Position numbers and translations under genes: made by a program. Shown piece after piece: positions 6,209 through 18,572 of a DNA stretch of 64,000 nucleotides (position 1 is the first letter of the stretch; each line of letters starts with the position of its first letter). The DNA lies in assembly GCF_017875315.1 (NCBI RefSeq), contig NZ_JAGGMM010000001.1:310001-374000 (forward strand), given 5' to 3'. This DNA comes from Methanomicrobium sp. W14. GTDB lineage: Archaea; Halobacteriota; Methanomicrobia; Methanomicrobiales; Methanomicrobiaceae. A model generated the notes under the pieces. It made no database searches. It was not told where the DNA came from and was given only the letters and a program-made list of their open reading frames with translations.

Positions 6209-7465
6209 TTAAGTGACAGGTCTGATTGAAAAAAAGAAAGCCCTGAGATCGGAATAGATTTTTAAACTTCTTACAGGAATTTTTTCTATGGGGGAAGGCT
6301 GAATTTTCATCCCACAATGGGCAATATTGTTCCTGAGATCCGTAATTGTGCCCCAAAGTCTGCAGAATGACTCTTTTTCATTATGGTGCATATTCAGAAA
6401 CTCTGAAAATTCAGGAATGCTGTCAAAATTTCCATTCCTTTTTTCACGTATCAATGCACCCATTGCTCTCTCCGAATTCCTGCGGATACCTTCATCAAGC
6501 CATTCTTTGCAGTATTTACCGTGCCAAAGAATAAGGAGAGTGACCATGAATTCACGTGCAAGGGTCATGGACTGCATAAAAAGGTTCTTTTCGTTCATCA
6601 GTCCGATTAGTTCCAGTTGTTTTTCTGCATAATCCCATGTGATATTTCCATCAGGCGGTTTTTCTGTTATATATTTCTGCAACCCTGAGATCCTGTTTTC
6701 TATCGGGTCTATAAACGGGACAAAGAATTCCAGTTCAGCTTTGACCTGATCATAATCCCGGAATACTGCATTAGCTCTTTCAAGAGAGTCGGCCGGTCTT
6801 GAAAGCCGCACGGCGATTGTGAACTTATTCAGGTTATCAGACCATTTCTGGAGTTTTTTAGGGCCCTCATTGGGATTTGCCATTTCAAGGTGTACATTTT
6901 TGTTAATTTCCTGTATAAGACCTGAAATTTTACCGGCATCAAGAGACTCGGTAAAACTGTAAGCACCTGCTATCCAGTCTGATATCGAGACAAACAAGGT
7001 AAGATCCAGAATCGGACTTGACTTGACTCCTTTCTGGTAAGTACCATAAAGCACTTTTTCTATTTCCACTTTCCCGGTTGACCGGAGGTACGATGCGATT
7101 AGGTAACTTACAAATGGAATGGACCTGAATCCGTGAGTTATATCGAAAATTATCTTATCTTCGTCATTGACTTCACCTGAAATTATTCTGAATATTTCCC
7201 AGAGTTCTTCCTCGTTCATGCAATTTGGTATCATTACATTATTTGCAATGAACTTTTTTTCAGAGCATGAAGACTCAAGATTCTCTTTTATCTGGGGGTA
7301 TGCACATTTATATGCCTCTTCAGTGGTGAATAGAACAGCCTCGTCAATTCCGGGGAAAAAATTGCATATTGCTTCTTGAATGCAGTCTGTGTTACAGGAT
7401 TTGCCGTTTAATGTATATTCCGTTTTTTCATAATTCCCTGATCCGATAAATGAAAAAAGTTTCAT
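6209..7465 (-). CDS. csx1: CARF-HEPN protein, Csx1/TM1812 family RNase
   Basis: This 418-residue protein has the TM1812-type CARF fold at its N-terminus (MKLFSFIGSGNYEKTEY, and the family signature DITHGFRSIPF near residue 110). It has a C-terminal helical HEPN domain with the catalytic R-x4-H motif (RNNIAH, about residues 378-383). In type III systems such proteins bind cyclic oligoadenylate made by Cas10 and then cut RNA non-specifically. The start codon overlaps the end of the upstream CARF gene by four bases (ATGA), so the two are co-transcribed, divergently from cas1. An intact HEPN motif together with the intact Cas10 GGDD in the same locus supports an active signalling branch. The subfamily name (Csx1 versus Csx2 or Csx20) is uncertain. 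Confidence 0.85.
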   Translation of the reverse strand: MKLFSFIGSGNYEKTEYTLNGKSCNTDCIQEAICNFFPGIDEAVLFTTEEAYKCAYPQIKENLESSCSEKKFIANNVMIPNCMNEEELWEIFRIISGEVNDEDKIIFDITHGFRSIPFVSYLIASYLRSTGKVEIEKVLYGTYQKGVKSSPILDLTLFVSISDWIAGAYSFTESLDAGKISGLIQEINKNVHLEMANPNEGPKKLQKWSDNLNKFTIAVRLSRPADSLERANAVFRDYDQVKAELEFFVPFIDPIENRISGLQKYITEKPPDGNITWDYAEKQLELIGLMNEKNLFMQSMTLAREFMVTLLILWHGKYCKEWLDEGIRRNSERAMGALIREKRNGNFDSIPEFSEFLNMHHNEKESFCRLWGTITDLRNNIAHCGMKIQPSPIEKIPVRSLKIYSDLRAFFFSIRPVT

Positions 7466-8205
7466 TTTCCAATAAGCACCTCCAGAAGAGCCTGCCCGTG
7501 AGGAGTTACCTCATAATTATTTCCGATTTTATCAAAGATTCCATGACTTACCATCAGTTCAAGGTCGGATTTTTCCATACCTGCCCCGGAATTTGAGATT
7601 GAATGAATGAGGTAAACCAGATAATCGTCGGGAAACGGAAGAGTGGGTATACGGATTATCTCATATCCTGAACGGAGGGGAAAAAGTAGTGCATCATATT
7701 CAGATTTTTTCTTTTCATAAAGACGGTCACGTGCTTCTTCATTGAGACCGAAAAATTCAAGTATGTCCTTTCTAAGGTATTCTAACCGCTCGTTTAATAC
7801 ACTGACGTTTTTATTCACAATATGGAATACGCCGTCAACCTGTAGTATCTGACCGAGCAGAGCAAGGGTAACGCATTCATTTTTTCTTCCTCCGGCACAG
7901 TTCAGGAAGATTCTGTCGCAGTTGAAGTCTTCCCGCTCCCTGCGTATATTATGGGCTGCAAGAGACATGAAGGTAAAATTTTCTTCATTGTTTGATATAT
8001 CATCAAATGAAAGTACCTCAGTATGGATTCTAAGCCAGGGATACTTTGAGGAAAGGCCTGCCGAGAGAAAATCTGCACCTGCAAGTACCATGTTGTTGTC
8101 GGTGGCTATTATGACCAGATCTGATACTGGAGCCCCGATACCGTCTATGAATGACGTTATCGCAGGCGGACTTAGTCCTAGTGGTGCTATCACTGCTGTT
8201 TTCAT
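7462..8205 (-). CDS. CARF-domain protein with C-terminal winged helix
   Basis: This 247-residue protein begins with a Rossmann-like CARF segment (TAVIAPLGLSPPAITSFIDGI, then LVIIATDNN) and has a conserved glycine-rich loop NCAGGRKNECVTLAL near residue 110, as in ligand-binding CARF or ring-nuclease proteins. The last 60 residues (KSDLELMVSHGIFDKIGNNYEVTPHGQALLEVL) look like a winged helix. It may degrade or sense cyclic oligoadenylate, or act as a CARF-type transcription regulator of the locus. The start was placed at ATG 8205, eleven bases after an AGGTGA ribosome site; a GTG at 8220 overlaps that site. It overlaps csx1 by four bases. Confidence 0.65.
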   Translation of the reverse strand: MKTAVIAPLGLSPPAITSFIDGIGAPVSDLVIIATDNNMVLAGADFLSAGLSSKYPWLRIHTEVLSFDDISNNEENFTFMSLAAHNIRREREDFNCDRIFLNCAGGRKNECVTLALLGQILQVDGVFHIVNKNVSVLNERLEYLRKDILEFFGLNEEARDRLYEKKKSEYDALLFPLRSGYEIIRIPTLPFPDDYLVYLIHSISNSGAGMEKSDLELMVSHGIFDKIGNNYEVTPHGQALLEVLIGK

Positions 8206-8286
8206 AGAATATTCATTCACCTGTATTGTGAATTGTAGGGTTTTTTAATTGATAAATTTATATTGCTGATCAAAACAGGTGACAGA

Positions 8287-9273
8287 ATGGACTTAGTTAT
8301 CAACGGTTACGGGGCTGTTCTCATGAAAAAAAGCAACAGATTTGTTGTAGAATGCAATGGAGAGAAAGAAGAGATTTCAACAGAGGATGTGGATCAGATT
8401 GTTATCTGCGATAGCGCAGTGGTGAGTACAGCGGCCCTTGCATGTGCTTCAGAAAGAGGTATAGATCTGGTTGTTATGAAAAAATCCGGACTTCCTGAAT
8501 GCAGAGTTATTCCTGCGGATTTTGGAAAAATCGCCCGAATAAGGCGTTGTCAACTTCTGGCGTCTGAATCGGAGAATGGGTTTCTGATTATGAGGTCTAT
8601 CATCAGTGCAAAGATCGTTAATATGTCAAATCTTATCCTGACCCTCTCTAAAACGAGGGATAATGTGAAACTCAGACGCCAGAAACTGAAACTGGACTCT
8701 TTTGCAGCCAAGGCAGAGAAAATTTCATTCGAGGACGGTTATAATGCGTTGAGAGGAGCGGAAGGCGCGGCATCATCGCTTTATTTTTCAGTTCTTGGTG
8801 AAGTGATTCCAAAGACCTTTTATTCCGGGAAGAGAAGTCAGCATCCTGCGGCTGATATCTTTAATTCGTATCTCAATTACTGTTACGGTGTTCTCTATAA
8901 TGAAGTCGAAAGGGCCTGCATTTATTCCGGACTTGATCCCTGGACCGGCTTTATGCATGCTGACCGGTCCAAAAACAAGTCCTTTATATATGATTGCGTT
9001 GAGCAGTTCAGGCAACCGGTCGCAGACAGGCTTATCATCACGATGGCAGTCAGAAACCGCTTTTCTGCCGGAGATGTAGACAATTCATTTTTCCTTACCA
9101 ACATTGGGAGAAGAAAGGCTATCGGTGAAATTATTGCCCGTCTTGACGATGAAAGAACAATTCTGGGTAAAAAAACAACTTTTCGAAAAGTTATAAGGGA
9201 GAACATCAGGTTACTTGCGGGTTGCCTTGCAGAAGGTACGGAATATGTGCCTTTTACTTATAAATGGAATTAA
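8287..9273 (+). CDS. cas1: CRISPR integrase Cas1
   Basis: Cas1 is the metal-dependent endonuclease-integrase that inserts new spacers. The 328-residue protein has the expected beta N-terminal domain and helical catalytic domain, with the metal ligands E159 (RGAEGAASS), H224 (GFMHADR) and E239 (DCVEQFR). ATG 8287 was chosen because AGGTGA lies four bases upstream. An earlier in-frame start at 8263 would include the ribosome site. It runs divergently from the CARF pair across an 81-base promoter region and is followed by cas2 after 13 bases. All catalytic residues are intact. Confidence 0.95.
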   Translation: MDLVINGYGAVLMKKSNRFVVECNGEKEEISTEDVDQIVICDSAVVSTAALACASERGIDLVVMKKSGLPECRVIPADFGKIARIRRCQLLASESENGFLIMRSIISAKIVNMSNLILTLSKTRDNVKLRRQKLKLDSFAAKAEKISFEDGYNALRGAEGAASSLYFSVLGEVIPKTFYSGKRSQHPAADIFNSYLNYCYGVLYNEVERACIYSGLDPWTGFMHADRSKNKSFIYDCVEQFRQPVADRLIITMAVRNRFSAGDVDNSFFLTNIGRRKAIGEIIARLDDERTILGKKTTFRKVIRENIRLLAGCLAEGTEYVPFTYKWN

Positions 9274-9849: not shown

Positions 9850-10268
9850 GTTGCAGAATGTATTCCAACAAAACAAGGATTGCAACTACATAATAACCGT
9901 TGTGTGTATTTGTATCGTTATGCTCCCAGTTGCAGAATGTATTCCAACAAAACAAGGATTGCAACGGCACTATTGCAGCCTTTCCATCCCGGATTGATTC
10001 AGTTGCAGAATGTATTCCAACAAAACAAGGATTGCAACAACTCATTTTTCCGGGGATCATAACGTACAGGGATATAGTCGTGTTGCAGAATGTATTCCAA
10101 CAAAACAAGGATTGCAACTTTATGTTCTGATTGTTATTCCGGATAGTATAATCAGGAAGTTGCAGAATGTATTCCAACAAAACAAGGATTGCAACAATAT
10201 CCTCTCTGTTTCAGCCATGTGCAAATTTCAAGTTGCAGAATGTATTCCAACAAAACAAGGATTGCAAC
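9850..10268 (+). CRISPR. CRISPR array 1, six repeats and five spacers
   Basis: Six identical 37-bp repeats start at 9850, 9929, 10002, 10082, 10159 and 10232. Each begins GTTGCAGAATGTATTCC and ends GGATTGCAAC. The spacers are 42, 36, 43, 40 and 36 bp. The final ATTGCAAC matches the usual 8-nt crRNA 5' handle of type I and III systems, so transcription should run on the plus strand from the leader on the left. The last repeat is not degenerate. Confidence 0.98.
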
Positions 10269-10846: not shown

Positions 10847-11608
10847 ATGGAAAAATTTGTAAATTGTGATATTGAAAAAAAGGGACCTGTTAAAAAAGCA
10901 GGCAGAATATTAAAAAAACGTCTGTTTGTTTTTGCTATGGCAGCAGTCCTTCTGATGACTGTTATTATGACATCAGGCTGCGTTCAAATGACTGAAAATG
11001 TCAGAGTATCATCAGATGCAACGATAAATTACATAAAACTGACAATAACAACAAATCCGGCAATATATAGTCTGATTTCCGAGAATTGCAAAAAAGAGGG
11101 CTATTCAAATCTTCAGGAATATATTAAAGCGAAGAACCCCGACATATCGTATTCTGAAGACTGGAGCGGCGATGAAGTGACAATAACAACGGAACTAAAG
11201 AACGGAACGTGGACTCCTTTACCCGACAGTAAACGCATTATTACTGATGACGGAAGTACTATCACGTACATTGACAATACTTTCGTAAGTGAAAACAATG
11301 AGTTGGAAAAATACAGCTCTTCACAGTATTTCTTACTATACAATGCCATGATGGATTCAGTCAAAATTGATTTATATCTTGAAATGCCCGCCGAAATAAT
11401 AGATTCAAATGCTCAGTACGTCGACGACAACAAGGCGGAGTGGCACCTTGGCGGAACGACATTCTCAAGTACGCCGATATATGCTAAAAGCAAAAAAGGC
11501 TTTGTACTGTCGCCTGAGACAATAATTATCGCAGGATGCATTATCTTCATCATTGCAGTGGCGGCGGTTGTGTTGAGGAGAAGGTATAGAAAAAGAGAAT
11601 ATTATTAA
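10847..11608 (+). CDS. Lipoprotein with C-terminal membrane anchor
   Basis: The 253-residue product has a basic N-region, a hydrophobic signal segment (residues 24-43) and a lipobox-like MTSGC with the cysteine at 45. An extracellular domain of about 180 residues follows, with alternating Thr/Ile strands, then a C-terminal transmembrane helix (about 224-243) and an RRRYRKRE stop-transfer tail. The fold was not recognised. It resembles archaeal surface lipoproteins rather than a Cas protein, yet it sits between array 1 and cas10. AGGTGA lies a few bases before ATG. Whether it belongs to the CRISPR locus or merely interrupts it cannot be told from one genome. Confidence 0.7.
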   Translation: MEKFVNCDIEKKGPVKKAGRILKKRLFVFAMAAVLLMTVIMTSGCVQMTENVRVSSDATINYIKLTITTNPAIYSLISENCKKEGYSNLQEYIKAKNPDISYSEDWSGDEVTITTELKNGTWTPLPDSKRIITDDGSTITYIDNTFVSENNELEKYSSSQYFLLYNAMMDSVKIDLYLEMPAEIIDSNAQYVDDNKAEWHLGGTTFSSTPIYAKSKKGFVLSPETIIIAGCIIFIIAVAAVVLRRRYRKREYY

Positions 11609-11777: not shown

Positions 11778-14270
11778 ATGAAAAAAAGATTATCAACTGT
11801 GGACGAGACAGAGATTAACAGGATAGTAACTGCAGCTCTGTTCCATGATATTGGTAAGTTCAGCCAGCGGGCCGGAGAAGGACTGACCGGCAAATACGAA
11901 GCCTTTAACGAGGAAAAGTATGGCAAAAACGGGGCGCACGCCAAATGGAGCGCTCAGTTCATTAATCAATACTTCCCTGATGTTATAGTTGAAGACCTCG
12001 TCCTTTGTCATCATAATCCTGCCGCATCTGCTTCAAAGAACTATGCAAAGATCATTCAGGATGCAGACCGTCTCTCTTCGGCAATGGACCGAAGAGAGAG
12101 GAAAGATAAAGAAAAGGGCGATGTCAGGAAAGAACCGTTAAAAAGCATTTTTCCATCCATCGGAAAAAAGAATGAGACTGGGACTGACAATGCGATGTAC
12201 TACCCGGTTTCAGAACTTGATCTTAGTGAGAATATATTTCCAAAAAGTCTGGATGAAATTAAAAGGTATAACTATACATTCAGAGAACAGTATAAAAGGC
12301 TCTGGAAAGGATTTACGGAACAATGCAGAAATCTGGACAAAAAACCCGATGTCGGGACAACCCTTGCTCTTCTGAAGAGATATACTTCCAAGATTCCATC
12401 CGCAGTATATGTCAATGATCCGGATATCCCGTTGTTTGACCATTCAAAGACAACCGCCGCTATTGCACATGCACTTGCAGCGTCCAGCGATAAAACCCGG
12501 CCGTACCTCCTTATTCAGGGGGACATCTCCGGGATTCAGGACTTCATATTTAATGTGGTCACACCCGAGGATGCACGGAAAAAAATGGCGAAAAGGCTTA
12601 GGGGAAGATCCTTCTGGCTTGTATTGTTTTCAGATGCCATAGTCACAGAAATTTGCAGAGAACTGACACTGACGCCGGTATCGGTGCTATGGGACACTGG
12701 CGGAAAATTTGTAATCCTAGCACCGAACACCCCTGAAAATCGTGACATGGTTGAAAAGCTTGCGGCAAAAGTCAACAGGGAGCTCCTTCAGAAATTCGGA
12801 GGAAGGATATATCTTGCAACAGGACTTGTCGATGCCGGAAAGGACGATATACGTGAATTCCAAACAACACTTAGAAGACTTACTGAAGAAGTGGCAAAAA
12901 AGAAGTCACAAAAATTTCTTGACTGCGGAATAAGATTTGAACCTGTCGGGCAGAACGCGTCAATTAAAAAGTTTTGTCCTGTCTGCGGAAGCTTACTTGA
13001 CGATCAAGATCACTGCCGGTCCTGTCTGGTTCATGATTATATCGGGACAAAAATTGCAGGGTCTGAATATCTAGTCAGGAGAAGGGATGCATCTCTGCCG
13101 GTTTCATATAGAGACTACGGTCTGAATGTTTCTTATGATCTCATAAAAGCAGAAAAAAAAGTTTATGACAGCAATACAGATGTTTTTTCGTTAAACAGTA
13201 CTGATTTCACAGTGAAAGGTAAAGGAGAGAGAGGATTCAGGTTTATCGGAAATACTGTCCCGAAGTACAATAAGGAGATCCTTACTTTCAGTGATATAGC
13301 AAAGCTTTCAAAAGGGGCACCAAAACTGGGAATTCTGAAAGCAGATGTAGACAACCTGGGGAAACTTTTTGCATTTGGAATTCCTGAAAATGACAGAAGT
13401 ATTTCAAGAATTCATACATTCAGCGATCAGCTCCAGCTTTTCTTTGCAGGATACCTGAACAGAATCTGTGAAGAGTTCTGTGTTTATCATGATCTTTGTT
13501 CCGAATGCGCTGAAAAGTTCAGAAACGATATTATAAAGATAACCCGTGAGAGAGAAGACGGCGGAAAACCCCAGAAATTTGAATTTTACAGGCTTTCAAA
13601 AGATGAAAAACCCTGTGAGAAATGTTTGGGTAAAAAGATTCCTGCCGTATATATCACATATTCTGGCGGGGACGATCTCCTGATAATTGCACCGTGGGAC
13701 ATCGCATTAGAGCTTGCCGGAAAAATATATTCTGAATTCAGGCGTTTTACATGTGAAAATCCTGTGATTACACTTTCTGCGGGAGTTGAGATAACTTCTC
13801 CCAGACTGCCGATCTCCCGTGGGGTTGCATATGCCGACATGCGTCTTGAGAATGCTAAAGAGAATGGAAAAAACAGGATTTCAGTCTTCGACGAATGCCT
13901 GATCTGGAAAGATGAAGAACTGACTTCCCATGAAAAGAGCTATTTCAGGGTTATTGAGACTGCAAGAGATCTTGAAGATGCAGTTTGCCTAAATAAGGTG
14001 TCCAGAGGGATGATCTATTCCTTCCTGAGGCTGTGGAATCAGACATGGGGTGATACTACTAAAACCGGGTGCACCTTTGAGAATGCGATGAATGCAAGAG
14101 TGAACAGGAAACGGTTCGTGCCTCACCTGAAGTATATGATGAAACGCAATATCAGGGACACTGCGGTAAGAAGTGAAGTCGAAAAATTGATCTCGCCTGA
14201 TATGTTTGGGTGGATCAAACTGCCTGTCTACTGGACAAGCCTTAGAATGAGAAAGAGAGAGGAGATGTGA
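11778..14270 (+). CDS. cas10: Cas10/Csm1, type III-A signature subunit
   Basis: Cas10 is the large subunit of the Csm complex. It cuts ssDNA with its HD domain and makes cyclic oligoadenylate with its palm domains when target RNA binds. At 830 residues it has an N-terminal HD domain (LFHDIGKFSQRA, H23/D24), a first palm, a zinc site CPVCG...CRSC near 400-416, a second Cys-rich motif (CSECAEKF, CEKC) near 575-615, and an intact cyclase motif GGDD at 630-633 within YITYSGGDDLLII. Both activities are therefore predicted. It is followed by csm2 after four bases and heads the effector operon. Confidence 0.95.
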   Translation: MKKRLSTVDETEINRIVTAALFHDIGKFSQRAGEGLTGKYEAFNEEKYGKNGAHAKWSAQFINQYFPDVIVEDLVLCHHNPAASASKNYAKIIQDADRLSSAMDRRERKDKEKGDVRKEPLKSIFPSIGKKNETGTDNAMYYPVSELDLSENIFPKSLDEIKRYNYTFREQYKRLWKGFTEQCRNLDKKPDVGTTLALLKRYTSKIPSAVYVNDPDIPLFDHSKTTAAIAHALAASSDKTRPYLLIQGDISGIQDFIFNVVTPEDARKKMAKRLRGRSFWLVLFSDAIVTEICRELTLTPVSVLWDTGGKFVILAPNTPENRDMVEKLAAKVNRELLQKFGGRIYLATGLVDAGKDDIREFQTTLRRLTEEVAKKKSQKFLDCGIRFEPVGQNASIKKFCPVCGSLLDDQDHCRSCLVHDYIGTKIAGSEYLVRRRDASLPVSYRDYGLNVSYDLIKAEKKVYDSNTDVFSLNSTDFTVKGKGERGFRFIGNTVPKYNKEILTFSDIAKLSKGAPKLGILKADVDNLGKLFAFGIPENDRSISRIHTFSDQLQLFFAGYLNRICEEFCVYHDLCSECAEKFRNDIIKITREREDGGKPQKFEFYRLSKDEKPCEKCLGKKIPAVYITYSGGDDLLIIAPWDIALELAGKIYSEFRRFTCENPVITLSAGVEITSPRLPISRGVAYADMRLENAKENGKNRISVFDECLIWKDEELTSHEKSYFRVIETARDLEDAVCLNKVSRGMIYSFLRLWNQTWGDTTKTGCTFENAMNARVNRKRFVPHLKYMMKRNIRDTAVRSEVEKLISPDMFGWIKLPVYWTSLRMRKREEM

Positions 14271-14274
14271 AGAG

Positions 14275-14763
14275 ATGAGTTATGAAAGATCGAGATATAA
14301 AAATGAGTATGAACCAAAACAAAATTCCAGACGTGGGAATAGTGAATTTGAGGATATTCTTAAGCCGCTTAAAGAAGCTCCTGATCTGGGTTCCATCTCG
14401 ATTGAGGATATTGCAAAGCCGGACGGGATTGCTGAAAAAGTTGCAAAACAGCTTAAATCCAACAGATCAGAGCTGAATCCAACGCAGCTCCGAAAATATT
14501 TTGACAGTATCATTAAGATTCAGGAAAAGATCTCAGAATCCGGCTGGGAGTCTGCAAAATCCGGCTACTATATGCTCTATCCCACACTTGCGTATGCAAA
14601 AGGAAGAAAGACGATTCCCGGAGATTTCTATAATTTCTGTACTTTATGTCTCGATAAAATCCCTTCTAAAACTGGAGATCAGGCTTCTGCAGAAAATTTC
14701 AAAAAATTCGTATCGGTTATGGAATCGCTGGTTGCATACTCCAAGTATTATGAGAAGGAGTGA
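14275..14763 (+). CDS. csm2: Csm2, small subunit of the Csm complex
   Basis: This 162-residue helical protein carries the Csm2 pattern: a basic, disordered first 30 residues, then ELNPTQLRKYFDSI (the family TQLRKF-like motif, about residues 64-77) and YPTLAYAKGRK. Csm2 lines the crRNA-target duplex in the small-subunit filament. The order cas10-csm2-csm3 is standard for type III-A. GAGATG precedes the start, and csm3 follows five bases after its stop. Confidence 0.92.
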   Translation: MSYERSRYKNEYEPKQNSRRGNSEFEDILKPLKEAPDLGSISIEDIAKPDGIAEKVAKQLKSNRSELNPTQLRKYFDSIIKIQEKISESGWESAKSGYYMLYPTLAYAKGRKTIPGDFYNFCTLCLDKIPSKTGDQASAENFKKFVSVMESLVAYSKYYEKE

Positions 14764-14768
14764 ATGAA

Positions 14769-15497
14769 ATGGATTTTAAGAGAAACTATCTGATAAAAGG
14801 AAAGATTAACTGCAAAACAGGCATTCATATCGGAGGGATAGCCGAATCCATAAAGATCGGCGGTACTGATTCTCCGGTTGTAATTGACAGGATATCAGGA
14901 CTGCCCTATATTCCCGGTTCATCCATAAAAGGAAAGATGAGATCTCTTCTTGAACAGAGAAACATGGATAAATGGGGAGGAAAAAACGGAGGGGTTCATA
15001 ATTGTGATAAGGAAGACTGTGACCTCTGTGTAACCTTCGGGCGTGGAGCAAAGGACGGGTTTTTGTCAGGTCCGACCAGGCTTATAGTGAGGGATTCTTT
15101 CCCTGACGTTGCCACTAAGGATCTATGGGAATCCAAAGAGGATATCATGCACGGGACAGAAGTGAAAGGAGAAAATTTCCTGAATCGGATTTCTTCAGCG
15201 GCAACTCCAAGATTTATCGAGCGTGTGCCCGCCGGTTCAAAATTTGATTTTGAAATGATCTTTTCAGAGTATGAAGAGAAGGATAAGGAAAGACTGAAGA
15301 TCATCTTTGAAGCGATGGACATGCTTGAGGACAACTATCTGGGAGCGTCCGGTTCAAGGGGGTATGGGAAGATAAGTTTTGAAGATGTGGAACTTCTCGA
15401 AAAGACTAAGGACTCATATATAGAAGGCAGGGACTGGACAACAGTCAAGTCAGCAGAAGGAAAGAGCAGAGTGCGTGAGATCAGGCAGGCGCTTTAA
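14769..15497 (+). CDS. csm3: Csm3, backbone RAMP and target RNA nuclease
   Basis: Csm3 is the Cas7-type backbone subunit that cuts target RNA every six bases. The 242-residue product has CKTGIHIGG, then GGTDSPVVID with the catalytic aspartate at residue 34, GLPYIPGSSIKGKMRSLLE (the glycine-rich RAMP loop), and GASGSRGYGKISF at the C-terminal end. AAGGAG at 14755-14760 lies eight bases before ATG 14769. A GTG at 14760 overlaps that site and was not chosen. RNA cleavage should be intact because the aspartate is present. Confidence 0.94.
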   Translation: MDFKRNYLIKGKINCKTGIHIGGIAESIKIGGTDSPVVIDRISGLPYIPGSSIKGKMRSLLEQRNMDKWGGKNGGVHNCDKEDCDLCVTFGRGAKDGFLSGPTRLIVRDSFPDVATKDLWESKEDIMHGTEVKGENFLNRISSAATPRFIERVPAGSKFDFEMIFSEYEEKDKERLKIIFEAMDMLEDNYLGASGSRGYGKISFEDVELLEKTKDSYIEGRDWTTVKSAEGKSRVREIRQAL

Positions 15498-15523
15498 ATT
15501 CCGATAATTTTGGAAGTGGCGCA

Positions 15524-16459
15524 ATGTATGCAGTATACATATATCCTGAATCGCTTTTTCCGTCAAGCATCCCGTCTAATACAATATTCGGAGCACTATG
15601 CAGTGCATTTTCAGAGTTAGGCTTTGATGTGGATGGATTGCTGAGTTGTTATCCTGACAATCCGCCGTTTCTTATGTCTTCTGGCATACCGTGTGAGAAG
15701 AGAGACAACGGGTCAGTTGTGCACTTCTTCCCTATGCCGAAAATTCCATCTGCGAAGATACCTGATGAAAGTAATTTCGACGCATTCAAAAAGTTCAAAA
15801 AAGTGAGGTTCCTCCACGAGGATATTTTTCTGAAGCTTTCGAAAGGCGAACTGAAGTCCGCCGGAATCATGAACTTTGAAAAGGAATACTGTATTAAATC
15901 CTCAGGGATTCTTATCCCTAAAGGTGATGATTTCCATCGGGAGCAGTTAGCGGCAGATGTGCCGCATAATCAGATCAACAGGATGTCTTCTGAATCTGAA
16001 CAGTTCTTCTATTCAGAGGGCTGTTTTTACAAAGAAGGAAGCGGCTTTTGTATATTGGTTGATCTCATTGATGATTCATGGAAGGATAAAATAAATGCCG
16101 GGTTTTCTTTCCTGAAAGACAGGGGAATAGGAAAAGAGATCTCAGTTGGAGGAGGATCTTTTGAGATTGAATTCGGTGAATACACACTCCCTGAGGTTGA
16201 AACAGAGTATCTGACATCAATATCACGTTATCTGCCCGAGGATATTGAACAGTTCAATGGCGGGATATGGTATGATCCTGTAACTATTCATGGCAGAAGT
16301 ACGGACGGTTTTATGAAAAAACAGGTTATAATGCTAAAAGAAGGTTCTGTATTCAGGAATACAGGGAAAAAGTATTATGGATCTGTTGCAATGGTAAGGG
16401 AAAACCCACCGGTTGTTGAATACGGTATGGCCTTTACAGTTCCATGGGGAGGGATTTAA
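15524..16459 (+). CDS. csm4: Csm4, crRNA 5'-handle binding RAMP
   Basis: This 311-residue Cas5-like RAMP opens with MYAVYIYPESLFPSSIPSNTIFGALCSAF, the usual Csm4 start, in which the loop after the first strand recognises the crRNA handle. It ends with MVRENPPVVEYGMAFTVPW. Csm4 anchors Cas10 to the backbone. The glycine-rich segment ISVGGGSFEIEF is near residue 205. It overlaps csm5 by one base (TAATG), indicating translational coupling. Confidence 0.88.
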   Translation: MYAVYIYPESLFPSSIPSNTIFGALCSAFSELGFDVDGLLSCYPDNPPFLMSSGIPCEKRDNGSVVHFFPMPKIPSAKIPDESNFDAFKKFKKVRFLHEDIFLKLSKGELKSAGIMNFEKEYCIKSSGILIPKGDDFHREQLAADVPHNQINRMSSESEQFFYSEGCFYKEGSGFCILVDLIDDSWKDKINAGFSFLKDRGIGKEISVGGGSFEIEFGEYTLPEVETEYLTSISRYLPEDIEQFNGGIWYDPVTIHGRSTDGFMKKQVIMLKEGSVFRNTGKKYYGSVAMVRENPPVVEYGMAFTVPWGGI

Positions 16460-17637
16460 TGACGGAACTAATGGTCAGGACATTAACACCTGTACACATC
16501 GGGACAGGACAGGTTTATACGCCTTACGAATTTGTCTTTCATAAAGGTACAAAATCAGGTAAAAATTTTGTTGCAAGGGTTGATATGGATAAGTTTTACC
16601 GCTCGCTCAGTGAAGATAAAAAATCCGTATATATCAACAGGGTGAGATCAGATAATGATTTCACCCTTGAAAGATTTTTCAGGGACGAGCGGATAGATAA
16701 TCTAAAAGATGTTTTCAGGTATCTTGCCGAGAGAACGGGTGCAATACTGCCGAACAATATTAAAGATATTCGTGAATGTATAAAAACAGCAGATATTGCA
16801 TATATTCCCGGATCCAGCATCAAAGGTGCGGTCAGGACGGCACTTCTGTGGAAGTATTTCTCCAGAAGATCTGATGAATTGGTTCAAAAACTCAGTTCTG
16901 AAATTAGTGACCGGACTAATAGGAAACGAATCGGAAAGAATCTGACTGATAATGTATTTTCGTATCAACACGAAAGGAGATACGACCCTAGAAATGATAT
17001 AATGAAATTTTTGCTGGTGTCGGATTTTATGCCCGAAAAAAATAATCGCATCTCAGTTCAGAGTATCAAAACGTGGTCGCTTGGTAGGCAGGGTATGGCT
17101 CAAAAAGATTTTCCTGTTTATGCTGAATGCATAAAAAAAGGTTCCGCTTTCAGTGGAAGTATATCCGTTTCGGACCAGTTCAATGCTGTAAAAGCTGATG
17201 ATAGAAAACAAATTGAAGAGAAATTTGAATCTTTCGGGCTTCAGGATTTTTATGATGGGGAAAATCTGGTTTCAGAAATAAAAAATGTTGTATCTGAGTT
17301 CAACAGGGCCGCTTTTGAAAAGGAGTCTCACCTGCTGGAAAAGATTCGGATAAAAGAATCAGAGTATGATATGATCCTCAGAAAAAATCTGAATACTATC
17401 AAAAGCCGGATGGATAATGGAAATCTGATCCGGGTCGGTTTTGGGACAGGTACTCTTTATCAGACAATAATGGGGATTGTGGAGGATAATGACCCTGATC
17501 TGTTTGCAAAAATTGTAACTGATCTGAAACTTGGAAAATATCCCCGGCAATATGATGGTTTGGAAATTTCCCCTCCTTATCCCAAGAGTGTAGAGATTAC
17601 AATGTCATACACACCTGCGGGGTGGATGGAATGGTAA
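16459..17637 (+). CDS. csm5: Csm5, 3'-end capping RAMP
   Basis: Csm5 caps the 3' side of the Csm backbone and helps crRNA maturation. The 392-residue product starts MTELMVRTLTPVHIGTGQVYTPYEF, contains the RAMP loop YIPGSSIKGAVRTALLWKYF near residue 120 and ends with RVGFGTGTLYQTIMG plus PKSVEITMSYTPAGWMEW. The start was set at ATG 16459, overlapping the csm4 stop; five extra codons upstream (GRDL) would lie inside csm4. A central insert of about 100 residues rich in Glu and Lys is usual for this variable subunit. Confidence 0.9.
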   Translation: MTELMVRTLTPVHIGTGQVYTPYEFVFHKGTKSGKNFVARVDMDKFYRSLSEDKKSVYINRVRSDNDFTLERFFRDERIDNLKDVFRYLAERTGAILPNNIKDIRECIKTADIAYIPGSSIKGAVRTALLWKYFSRRSDELVQKLSSEISDRTNRKRIGKNLTDNVFSYQHERRYDPRNDIMKFLLVSDFMPEKNNRISVQSIKTWSLGRQGMAQKDFPVYAECIKKGSAFSGSISVSDQFNAVKADDRKQIEEKFESFGLQDFYDGENLVSEIKNVVSEFNRAAFEKESHLLEKIRIKESEYDMILRKNLNTIKSRMDNGNLIRVGFGTGTLYQTIMGIVEDNDPDLFAKIVTDLKLGKYPRQYDGLEISPPYPKSVEITMSYTPAGWMEW

Positions 17638-17655
17638 ACAGAACCCGGAGATCCG

Positions 17656-18324
17656 ATGAAATATAAGACGCTTTATCTGGTCCTTAAAACCGACAGACCT
17701 GTGAAGGAGGAGGCTACTCAGCTTAGAGGTTATATAGGGAATGTCTTCTCCGAATACCCGGTACTTCATAACCATATGGGTTCTCCTGTCCTGACCTACC
17801 CGCGTGTGCAGTATAAGATGGTAGGAAAAACTCCTTCCATTTTTGGTATAGAAGAAGGTGCGGATGTCATAAAGAAAATATCCGGGGAGATAAATGAGCT
17901 TGATCTGCTGGGGAGCAGATATGAGGTTACTAAAAGAACAATTCATGAAAGATCGGTTGATATAGATATCACCCCCAAGCCTGTCAGCTACAGGTTTCTT
18001 TCTCCATGGCTTGCACTTAACTCAAAGAATTATGAGAGTTATAATAAGATTTCCGACTGGAAGAAGAGAAAGGAATTTCTAAACAAAATCCTGACGGGCA
18101 ATATACTCTCGATGGCAAAAGGGCTTGGCATTGTTGTCGAGAACCGACTGTATGTTCATTCGAAAATCGATTCTGTTCAGACACGCTACAAAAGTGTAGG
18201 TATGACTGGATTTACGGGGGAGTTCAGAGTAAATTTCTCCCTTCCTGAATACTGTGGTCTTGGAAAAGGAGTATCACAGGGTTTTGGTGCTCTCCGCGTG
18301 GAAAATCACAACCTTTTGGAATGA
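17656..18324 (+). CDS. cas6: Cas6-family pre-crRNA endoribonuclease
   Basis: The 222-residue RAMP protein ends with the Cas6-type glycine-rich loop GLGKGVSQGFGALRV. Its N-terminal half has a histidine-bearing segment (YPVLHNHMGSPVLTYPRVQYK) that could hold the catalytic base. Cas6 cuts the repeat eight bases from its 3' end to give the ATTGCAAC or ATTTCAAC handle. It is the last gene of the effector operon, 18 bases after csm5, and the second array follows. It diverges from the classic two-RAMP Cas6 in sequence, so the subfamily is uncertain. Confidence 0.8.
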   Translation: MKYKTLYLVLKTDRPVKEEATQLRGYIGNVFSEYPVLHNHMGSPVLTYPRVQYKMVGKTPSIFGIEEGADVIKKISGEINELDLLGSRYEVTKRTIHERSVDIDITPKPVSYRFLSPWLALNSKNYESYNKISDWKKRKEFLNKILTGNILSMAKGLGIVVENRLYVHSKIDSVQTRYKSVGMTGFTGEFRVNFSLPEYCGLGKGVSQGFGALRVENHNLLE

Positions 18325-18460: not shown

Positions 18461-18572
18461 GTTGCAGAATTAATTCCATTAAAACAAGGATTTCAACGGA
18501 ACCCCCCCCAAGAAATGGTAGATCAATCTGATGGAGTTGCAGAATTAATTCCATTAAAACAAGGATTTCAAC
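18461..18572 (+). CRISPR. CRISPR array 2, two repeats and one spacer
   Basis: Two identical 37-bp repeats at 18461-18497 and 18536-18572 flank one 38-bp spacer. The repeat begins GTTGCAGAATTAATTCC and ends GGATTTCAAC. It differs from the array 1 repeat at five positions (11, 12, 19, 20 and 33), so it is a related but distinct type. The handle would be ATTTCAAC. A conserved leader is present upstream. Confidence 0.93.

Follow-up and report, generated by a model that had tools for sequence, protein, structure and literature searches.

A Csx14-family CARF protein encoded beside Csx1 in a type III-A CRISPR locus of Methanomicrobium sp. W14 is a probable ring nuclease

Csx14 is described in print as a predicted ring nuclease, apparently of the Crn1 family, in a survey that limited ring nucleases to 250 aa, close to the 247 aa of the protein analyzed here (PMC12409355). 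The same source gives Csx16 and Csx20 as confirmed active enzymes. Csx14 itself is absent from the experimentally characterized ring nucleases in the accessible parts of PMC12669027 and PMC12409355, and no biochemical test of Csx14 was found in the literature searched. In the Crn1 ring nuclease Sso2081, Ser11 and Lys106 are important for cleavage and Asp75 and Arg105 chiefly for binding, and Thr10 can be dispensed with; in the Crn1 ring nuclease Sis0455, Lys106 is critical and Ser11 seemingly is not (PMC10018336). The ring nuclease Sis0811 and its orthologue Sso1393 carry a winged helix C-terminal to the CARF domain and are described as lacking a helical insert; the winged helix of Sis0811 is auto-inhibitory (PMC10018336). 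Csa3 transcription factors are CRISPR-associated and also join a CARF domain to a winged helix; in Csa3a, the majority of the conserved surface residues of that domain reportedly map to the putative DNA interface (PMC8699464). Finally, NE0113-type CARF proteins were predicted in 2014 to be transcription regulators (PMC4012209). The literature already contains both ideas, ring nuclease and regulator, as predictions made for the Csx14 family or its parent.

The window analyzed here is a 64,000-nt stretch of the Methanomicrobium sp. W14 genome. The initial annotation had placed in it a CARF protein with a winged helix beside Csx1, and each part of that description was confirmed. The csx14 gene occupies positions 7462–8205 of the minus strand and encodes a 247-aa protein consisting of a CARF domain with a helical insert and a short winged helix. 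The start is an ATG at 8205; an alternative GTG 15 nt upstream is possible and would yield a 252-aa form. The product scored above the curated cut-off of TIGR03642 (Csx14; 118.2 bits, cut-off 90.35), above that of PF09623 (Cas_NE0113; 73.9 bits, cut-off 23) and above the gathering cut-off of PF24744 (CARF-associated HTH; 33.5 bits, cut-off 27). The PADLOC model CARF5--CARF, which has 246 positions, matched residues 6–251 of the 252-aa GTG form with E 2.6e-89, well beyond chance, and the length and CARF-HTH layout of the product are as in this model. The open reading frame is a real Csx14-family gene and a largely ordinary, well-formed member. It shares with the family as defined by TIGR03642 and CARF5--CARF a score above the curated cut-off and type III linkage, and no distinguishing trait was found.

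The TGA stop of csx14 (7464–7462) overlaps the ATG of csx1 (7465–7463) in an ATGA stop-start overlap. The csx1 gene (6209–7465, minus strand) codes for a 418-aa CARF-HEPN effector of the CARF2 group (TIGR02221, 100.2 bits, cut-off 76.25; PADLOC CARF2--CARF_HEPN, 3.8e-93) with a DxTHG motif and the R-x4-H motif present as RNNIAH at residue 378. On the plus strand lie cas1 (8287–9273, ATG at 8287; PF01867, 217.9 bits), cas2, cas10/csm1 with HD and GGDD motifs (11778–14270; TIGR02578, 581 bits; GGDD at residue 630) and, identified by profile matches, csm2, csm3, csm4, csm5 and cas6b (14275–18324). A CRISPR array with six copies of a 37-nt repeat (9850–10268) is located beside cas2, and two copies of a variant 37-nt repeat, related to that of the six-copy array, are found beside cas6b (18461–18572). 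Thus, cas10, csm2–5, cas6b, cas1, cas2 and the arrays all fall within 12 kb, and by its gene sequences the locus classifies as type III-A with an intact Cas10 GGDD. In the genome as a whole (2.54 Mb, 6 contigs) the only Cas10 palm match is the cas10 of the window, and a search with PF08960 for a further ring nuclease, run with a working control, gave no match. PF09651 and PF09620 also returned nothing, but neither did they recover their controls. With one Cas10 palm match in the genome, one HEPN effector and one Csx14, the locus would be a conveniently small test case. A 249-aa frame that lies outside the window (G000:C3:614894-615532) matched positions 3–199 of the Csa3 model with 44.8 bits (cut-off 60.2) and is possibly a distant CARF-HTH or other HTH protein.

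The CARF fold anticipated in the initial annotation was found in an AlphaFold2 model of Csx14 (21 sequences; mean pLDDT 93.8, pTM 0.89). The best solved match in VIA-align was Sso2081 (7ygl; Z 20.6, rmsd 2.2, 170 residues, model residues 2–188), and Sis0455 gave similar values (7z56; Z 20.5, rmsd 2.5, 171 residues). The Csx14 profile had its best PDB matches to the sequences of the same two proteins (4.7e-11 to 8.3e-10). Two structures of Sis0811 matched over model residues 1–247 (7pq3, Z 16.1, rmsd 5.8, 190 residues; 7pq2, Z 15.1, rmsd 3.4, 193 residues), as did Sso1393 with Z 14.7 (3qyf; rmsd 3.5, 189 residues). Csa3 structures matched the CARF part with Z 12.4–12.7, the match to 2wte (Z 12.7, rmsd 2.8, 133 residues) covering model residues 2–190 only. 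The CARF core, delimited by alignment to Sso2081 and by conservation in the 21 sequences, comprises residues 2–131 (7813–8202, minus strand). It is followed by a helical insert as in Sso2081 and Sis0455, residues 132–177 (7675–7812, minus strand), delimited by the AlphaFold model, VIA-align and conservation, in which N138, E142, R145, Y163 and P176 are invariant in the 21 sequences. The predicted structure has the CARF fold with helical insert of the Crn1 type, and combines it with a C-terminal winged helix.

The core motifs of the CARF domain are G10-L11-S12 (motif I), D69 and G106-R107-K108 (motif II). Alignment with HMMER, using the profile of 21 sequences, paired S12, D69, R107 and K108 with Ser11, Asp75, Arg105 and Lys106 of Sso2081. 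D69, R107 and K108 are kept in all 21 sequences; S12 is a serine in 20 of them and a threonine in one, and G106 is a glycine in 20 and an alanine in one. The NCAGGRKNE segment (residues 102–110; 7876–7902, minus strand), earlier suggested to be a ligand-pocket loop, corresponds by this alignment and by its conservation to the motif II (GRK) loop of a predicted cA4 pocket. R185 is also invariant; pairing it with Sso2081 Arg172 was considered and set aside, because the sequence alignments to Sso2081 and to a Crn1-like protein end ahead of the strand concerned. The predicted active-site residues fit a Crn1-type ring nuclease without proving one.

Csx14 thus resembles Sso2081 and Sis0455 in the CARF core with helical insert (Z 20–21), the GRK of motif II, the serine of motif I and the counterpart of Asp75. 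It differs from them by the extra winged helix and by motif I, which reads GLS or GMS in Csx14 instead of the Crn1 GTS, so that the glycine and serine are kept and the threonine is replaced. Position 17, a glutamate in Sso2081, is a threonine or serine in Csx14 sequences, and Tyr133 of Sso2081 falls at a variable position with no conserved counterpart. With the NCBIfam Crn1 model NF040581, Csx14 scored 19 bits, far below the cut-off of 125, and none of 196 genomes of the phylum sample reached that cut-off; full Crn1 membership by NCBIfam is ruled out by score. In PADLOC, Csx14 belongs to CARF5, whereas Crn1 is in CARF7 and CARF_m13 (PMC12409355). The likeness to Sis0811 and Sso1393 lies in the order of domains and the full-length fold match, but Csx14 has the helical insert, was matched by neither NF040951 nor TIGR02619 at E 0.1 and scored 14.8 bits with PF09651, below the cut-off of 24.8.

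We next considered relatives of the gene and their neighbors. A Csx14 protein match was obtained in 8 of 60 genomes including its own, that in G016 covering residues 142–247 only. Of the 392 genomes in the phylum sample, 22 scored above the TIGR03642 cut-off and 16 above that of PF24744. When the species collection was scanned using the alignment of 21 sequences, 22 loci were obtained, 20 archaeal, mostly from Methanomicrobiales or Archaeoglobales, and two bacterial (Aquificaceae, Desulfarculaceae). The neighborhood sample comprised 28 loci, the window included. It left out L071 (CARF core lost), L085 and L086 (no HTH), L087, L088 and L111 (distant), L089/L107 (cut by a contig end) and duplicate records of one contig among L090–L110; two genomes contribute two loci each, G258 (L033 and L074) and G281 (L034 and L075), and L075 includes just the C-terminal 140 residues of csx14.

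A CARF-HEPN gene directly adjoins csx14 in 20 of the 28 loci, 19 times downstream (in L068 as taken from the ORF list) and once upstream (L032). The 4-nt overlap between csx14 and the effector gene is found in 13 of the 19 downstream cases, among them L080, where the effector is fragmented. By longest ORF, the spacing is −16 nt in L079, 12 nt in L034 and L076, 6 nt in L099 and −32 nt in L109. Elsewhere in the locus a CARF-HEPN gene is present in L069 (as a fragment), L070, L081 and L101; L082 has a weak match only, and none was found on the stretches examined in L083, L098 and L102.

The partner effectors belong to three CARF groups, CARF2, CARF9 and CARF1, assigned by PADLOC for the window and eight effectors and for the rest by sequence similarity to these. 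On a tree of 29 sequences with five labels (the three effector groups, none found, and Crn1-like without HTH), 8 changes are needed compared to a minimum of 4. The starred branches force at least three changes for CARF2 and at least two for CARF1, on a tree with several weakly supported inner branches and a long branch for L109. Judging from these sequences, the partner effector has been exchanged while Csx14 stays, and since the exchange runs across CARF1, CARF2 and CARF9, three HEPN groups may answer to one second messenger.

A Cas10 palm match is present in 20 of the 22 genomes above the TIGR03642 cut-off and in 47 of the 370 others (Fisher p 5.6e-15, a value that ignores shared ancestry; both counts are taken as the same 392 genomes, whose handles agree). 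The 22 include two genomes with an HTH-less form, G062 and G162. The two with csx14 and no palm match are G272, a draft, and G097, a single contig that is 99% complete. In G097 (L072), csx14 is accompanied by a coupled CARF9-HEPN gene; the pair can therefore stand without a Cas10 detectable by the model. L072 is either an orphan pair of effector and off-switch, or its Cas10 was missed by the model.

Because of the fold, the conserved motif residues, the linkage to HEPN effectors and the co-occurrence with Cas10, we consider the Csx14 of the window to be most likely a ring nuclease of the Csx14 family. Of the two roles proposed in the initial annotation, that of a ring nuclease ending the signal is the likely one, given the Crn1-like fold, the conserved counterparts of Ser11, Asp75, Arg105 and Lys106 and the tight effector linkage. 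Upon binding of target RNA, Cas10 would make cA4, which would activate the neighboring Csx1. A Csx14 dimer would hold cA4 between its two CARF domains, with R107 and D69 binding the ring, S12 and the loop of residues 102–110 positioning the scissile phosphate and K108 steadying the intermediate. A ribose 2′-OH would then cut the ring to give A4>P and A2>P, and the resulting drop in cA4 would stop Csx1. Against this assignment stand the Crn1 score below cut-off, the GLS/GMS form of motif I, the replacement of Glu17 and the lack of a conserved counterpart of Tyr133, the presence of a second ring-nuclease-like gene in 2 of 28 loci and the lack of a Cas10 palm match in G097.

The second genes are located directly upstream of csx14. 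In L034 (6822–7571, minus strand) it codes for a CARF protein of the TIGR02619 type, and in L076 (9900–10505, minus strand) for a Crn1-like CARF protein with 50 bits, below cut-off. Neighboring pairs of predicted ring nucleases are uncommon: more than one ring nuclease is given for only 10 of 242 positive loci in PMC12409355, compared to 2 of 28 Csx14 loci here. Such pairs would be explained if Csx14 bound cyclic oligoadenylate or Csx1 without cleaving, damping the signal by holding ligand or effector. The conserved binding residues and the expression coupled with csx1 would also suit such a binder. We nevertheless regard it as unlikely, as S12 and K108, whose counterparts are important for cleavage by Sso2081, are kept, and the exchange of partners from three CARF groups argues against a dedicated protein contact.

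The other role initially proposed, a regulator of the divergent cas promoter, fared worse. Here Csx14 would act like Csa3 under control of cyclic oligoadenylate, its winged helix binding the csx14/cas1 promoter and adjusting cas1–cas2 and csx14–csx1, with no cleavage. The HTH match to PF24744 and the published prediction for NE0113-type proteins speak for it. The winged helix (residues 193–247; 7465–7629, minus strand), delimited by PF24744, the models and the fold match, consists in the AlphaFold2 model of helices 193–204 and 212–220, a two-strand wing and helix 235–245; predicted alone, it showed the same elements (mean pLDDT 83.3, pTM 0.61). A canonical winged helix-turn-helix has three helices before the wing. 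In Csx14 there are two, one short of the canonical form. Thus, the DNA-binding look attributed earlier to the C-terminal part is borne out as regards the winged-helix type, but the domain is a shortened one. The isolated domain matched DNA-binding CggR, Sso10a, PadR-like and other proteins with Z 5.4–6.7 among the best 50 matches (up to Z 6.7 for the resemblance to CggR and Sso10a), a level that is common according to the tool; the Sso10a match aligned 55 residues inside a 71-residue range. Foldseek with the isolated domain found nothing at E 0.001 or better; the top-ranked structures included DNA-binding CggR and, at E 0.56, Sis0811.

The last 53–64 residues carry a net charge of −5 in the Csx14 of the window and of −1.05 on average in 21 Csx14 proteins (range −6 to +2), compared to +2.3 for residues 131–200 of 20 Csa3 proteins, whose range of −5 to +7 makes the two groups overlap. 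Mean pairwise identity is lowest in the winged helix, at 35%; the CARF core reaches 55%, and the last strand together with the linker 64%. Csx14 gave no match to the Csa3 model TIGR01884 at E 0.1 and keeps the catalytic lysine, whereas Csa3 proteins have a full helix-turn-helix, and Csa3a is described as lacking the lysine and not cleaving cA4 (PMC8699464). Only 4 of 28 loci (the window, L065, L067 and L069) have csx14 head-to-head with cas1, a number that short contigs may hold down; in other loci, e.g. L068 and L033, csx14 is on the strand of the cas operon.

The intergenic region shared by csx14 and cas1 (8206–8286), the putative promoter region, contains a TATA-like palindrome, recognized by eye, and an imperfect inverted repeat of 18 nt with 15 of 18 positions paired (8211–8228/8271–8288). 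Neither 200 simple shuffles nor 160 stretches taken elsewhere in the window gave a repeat as strong, which would favor a regulator. However, both arms include the Shine-Dalgarno sequence CAGGTGA, one arm extending into the cas1 start codon, and the repeat was not seen in the congener L065, though the block around the TATA-like element is kept there. Across the window the repeat motif, with up to three mismatches, has four matches, two of them the arms, versus 2.2 expected, and is not enriched over chance. Visual inspection of the upstream regions of 21 homologues revealed no shared palindrome. The likeliest reading of the inverted repeat is a pair of similar ribosome-binding sites; it may alternatively be an operator private to Methanomicrobium sp. 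W14. A shared operator was rejected, the lone notable repeat holding both Shine-Dalgarno sequences and not being seen in the congener. Taken with the short, acidic and least-conserved winged helix, these data make a regulator of this promoter quite improbable. By analogy with Sis0811, the most likely role of the shortened winged helix lies in dimer packing or tuning rather than in reading DNA.

That Csx14 is regulator and cleaver in one, sensing cA4, occupying the csx14/cas1 promoter through its winged helix for as long as the ligand is bound and erasing its own signal by cleavage, is very improbable indeed, though if true, adaptation (cas1–cas2) and the Csx1 effector would be timed by one molecule. 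In the CalpL system the DNA-binding part is another protein. CalpL, a SAVED ring nuclease upstream of a transcriptional response, is the nearest arrangement found in print (PMC11417357, PMC12751052).

Several relatives of the probable ring nuclease depart from the usual architecture. L085 (10099–10656) and L086 (4383–4940) encode 186-aa Csx14-family CARF proteins that lack the winged helix and score above the TIGR03642 cut-off. In Desulfarculaceae JdFR-97, a 488-aa ORF (L111:8484-9947, plus strand) holds two tandem Csx14-like CARF stretches with 77 bits in total, below cut-off. In a 119-aa ORF of G016 (L071:9934-10290, plus strand), the CARF core is gone (about residues 6–141), but the start of Csx14, the helical insert and the winged helix persist in one frame. 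Immediately upstream are CRISPR-like repeats. The 20-kb stretch showed no cas genes and G016 has no Cas10 palm match; the ORF is probably a decaying remnant. In L069, the CARF1-HEPN gene is cut to a 169-aa fragment (11009–11515, minus strand) and csx14 and the cas operon are intact, so that the effector is broken and the presumed off-switch is kept.
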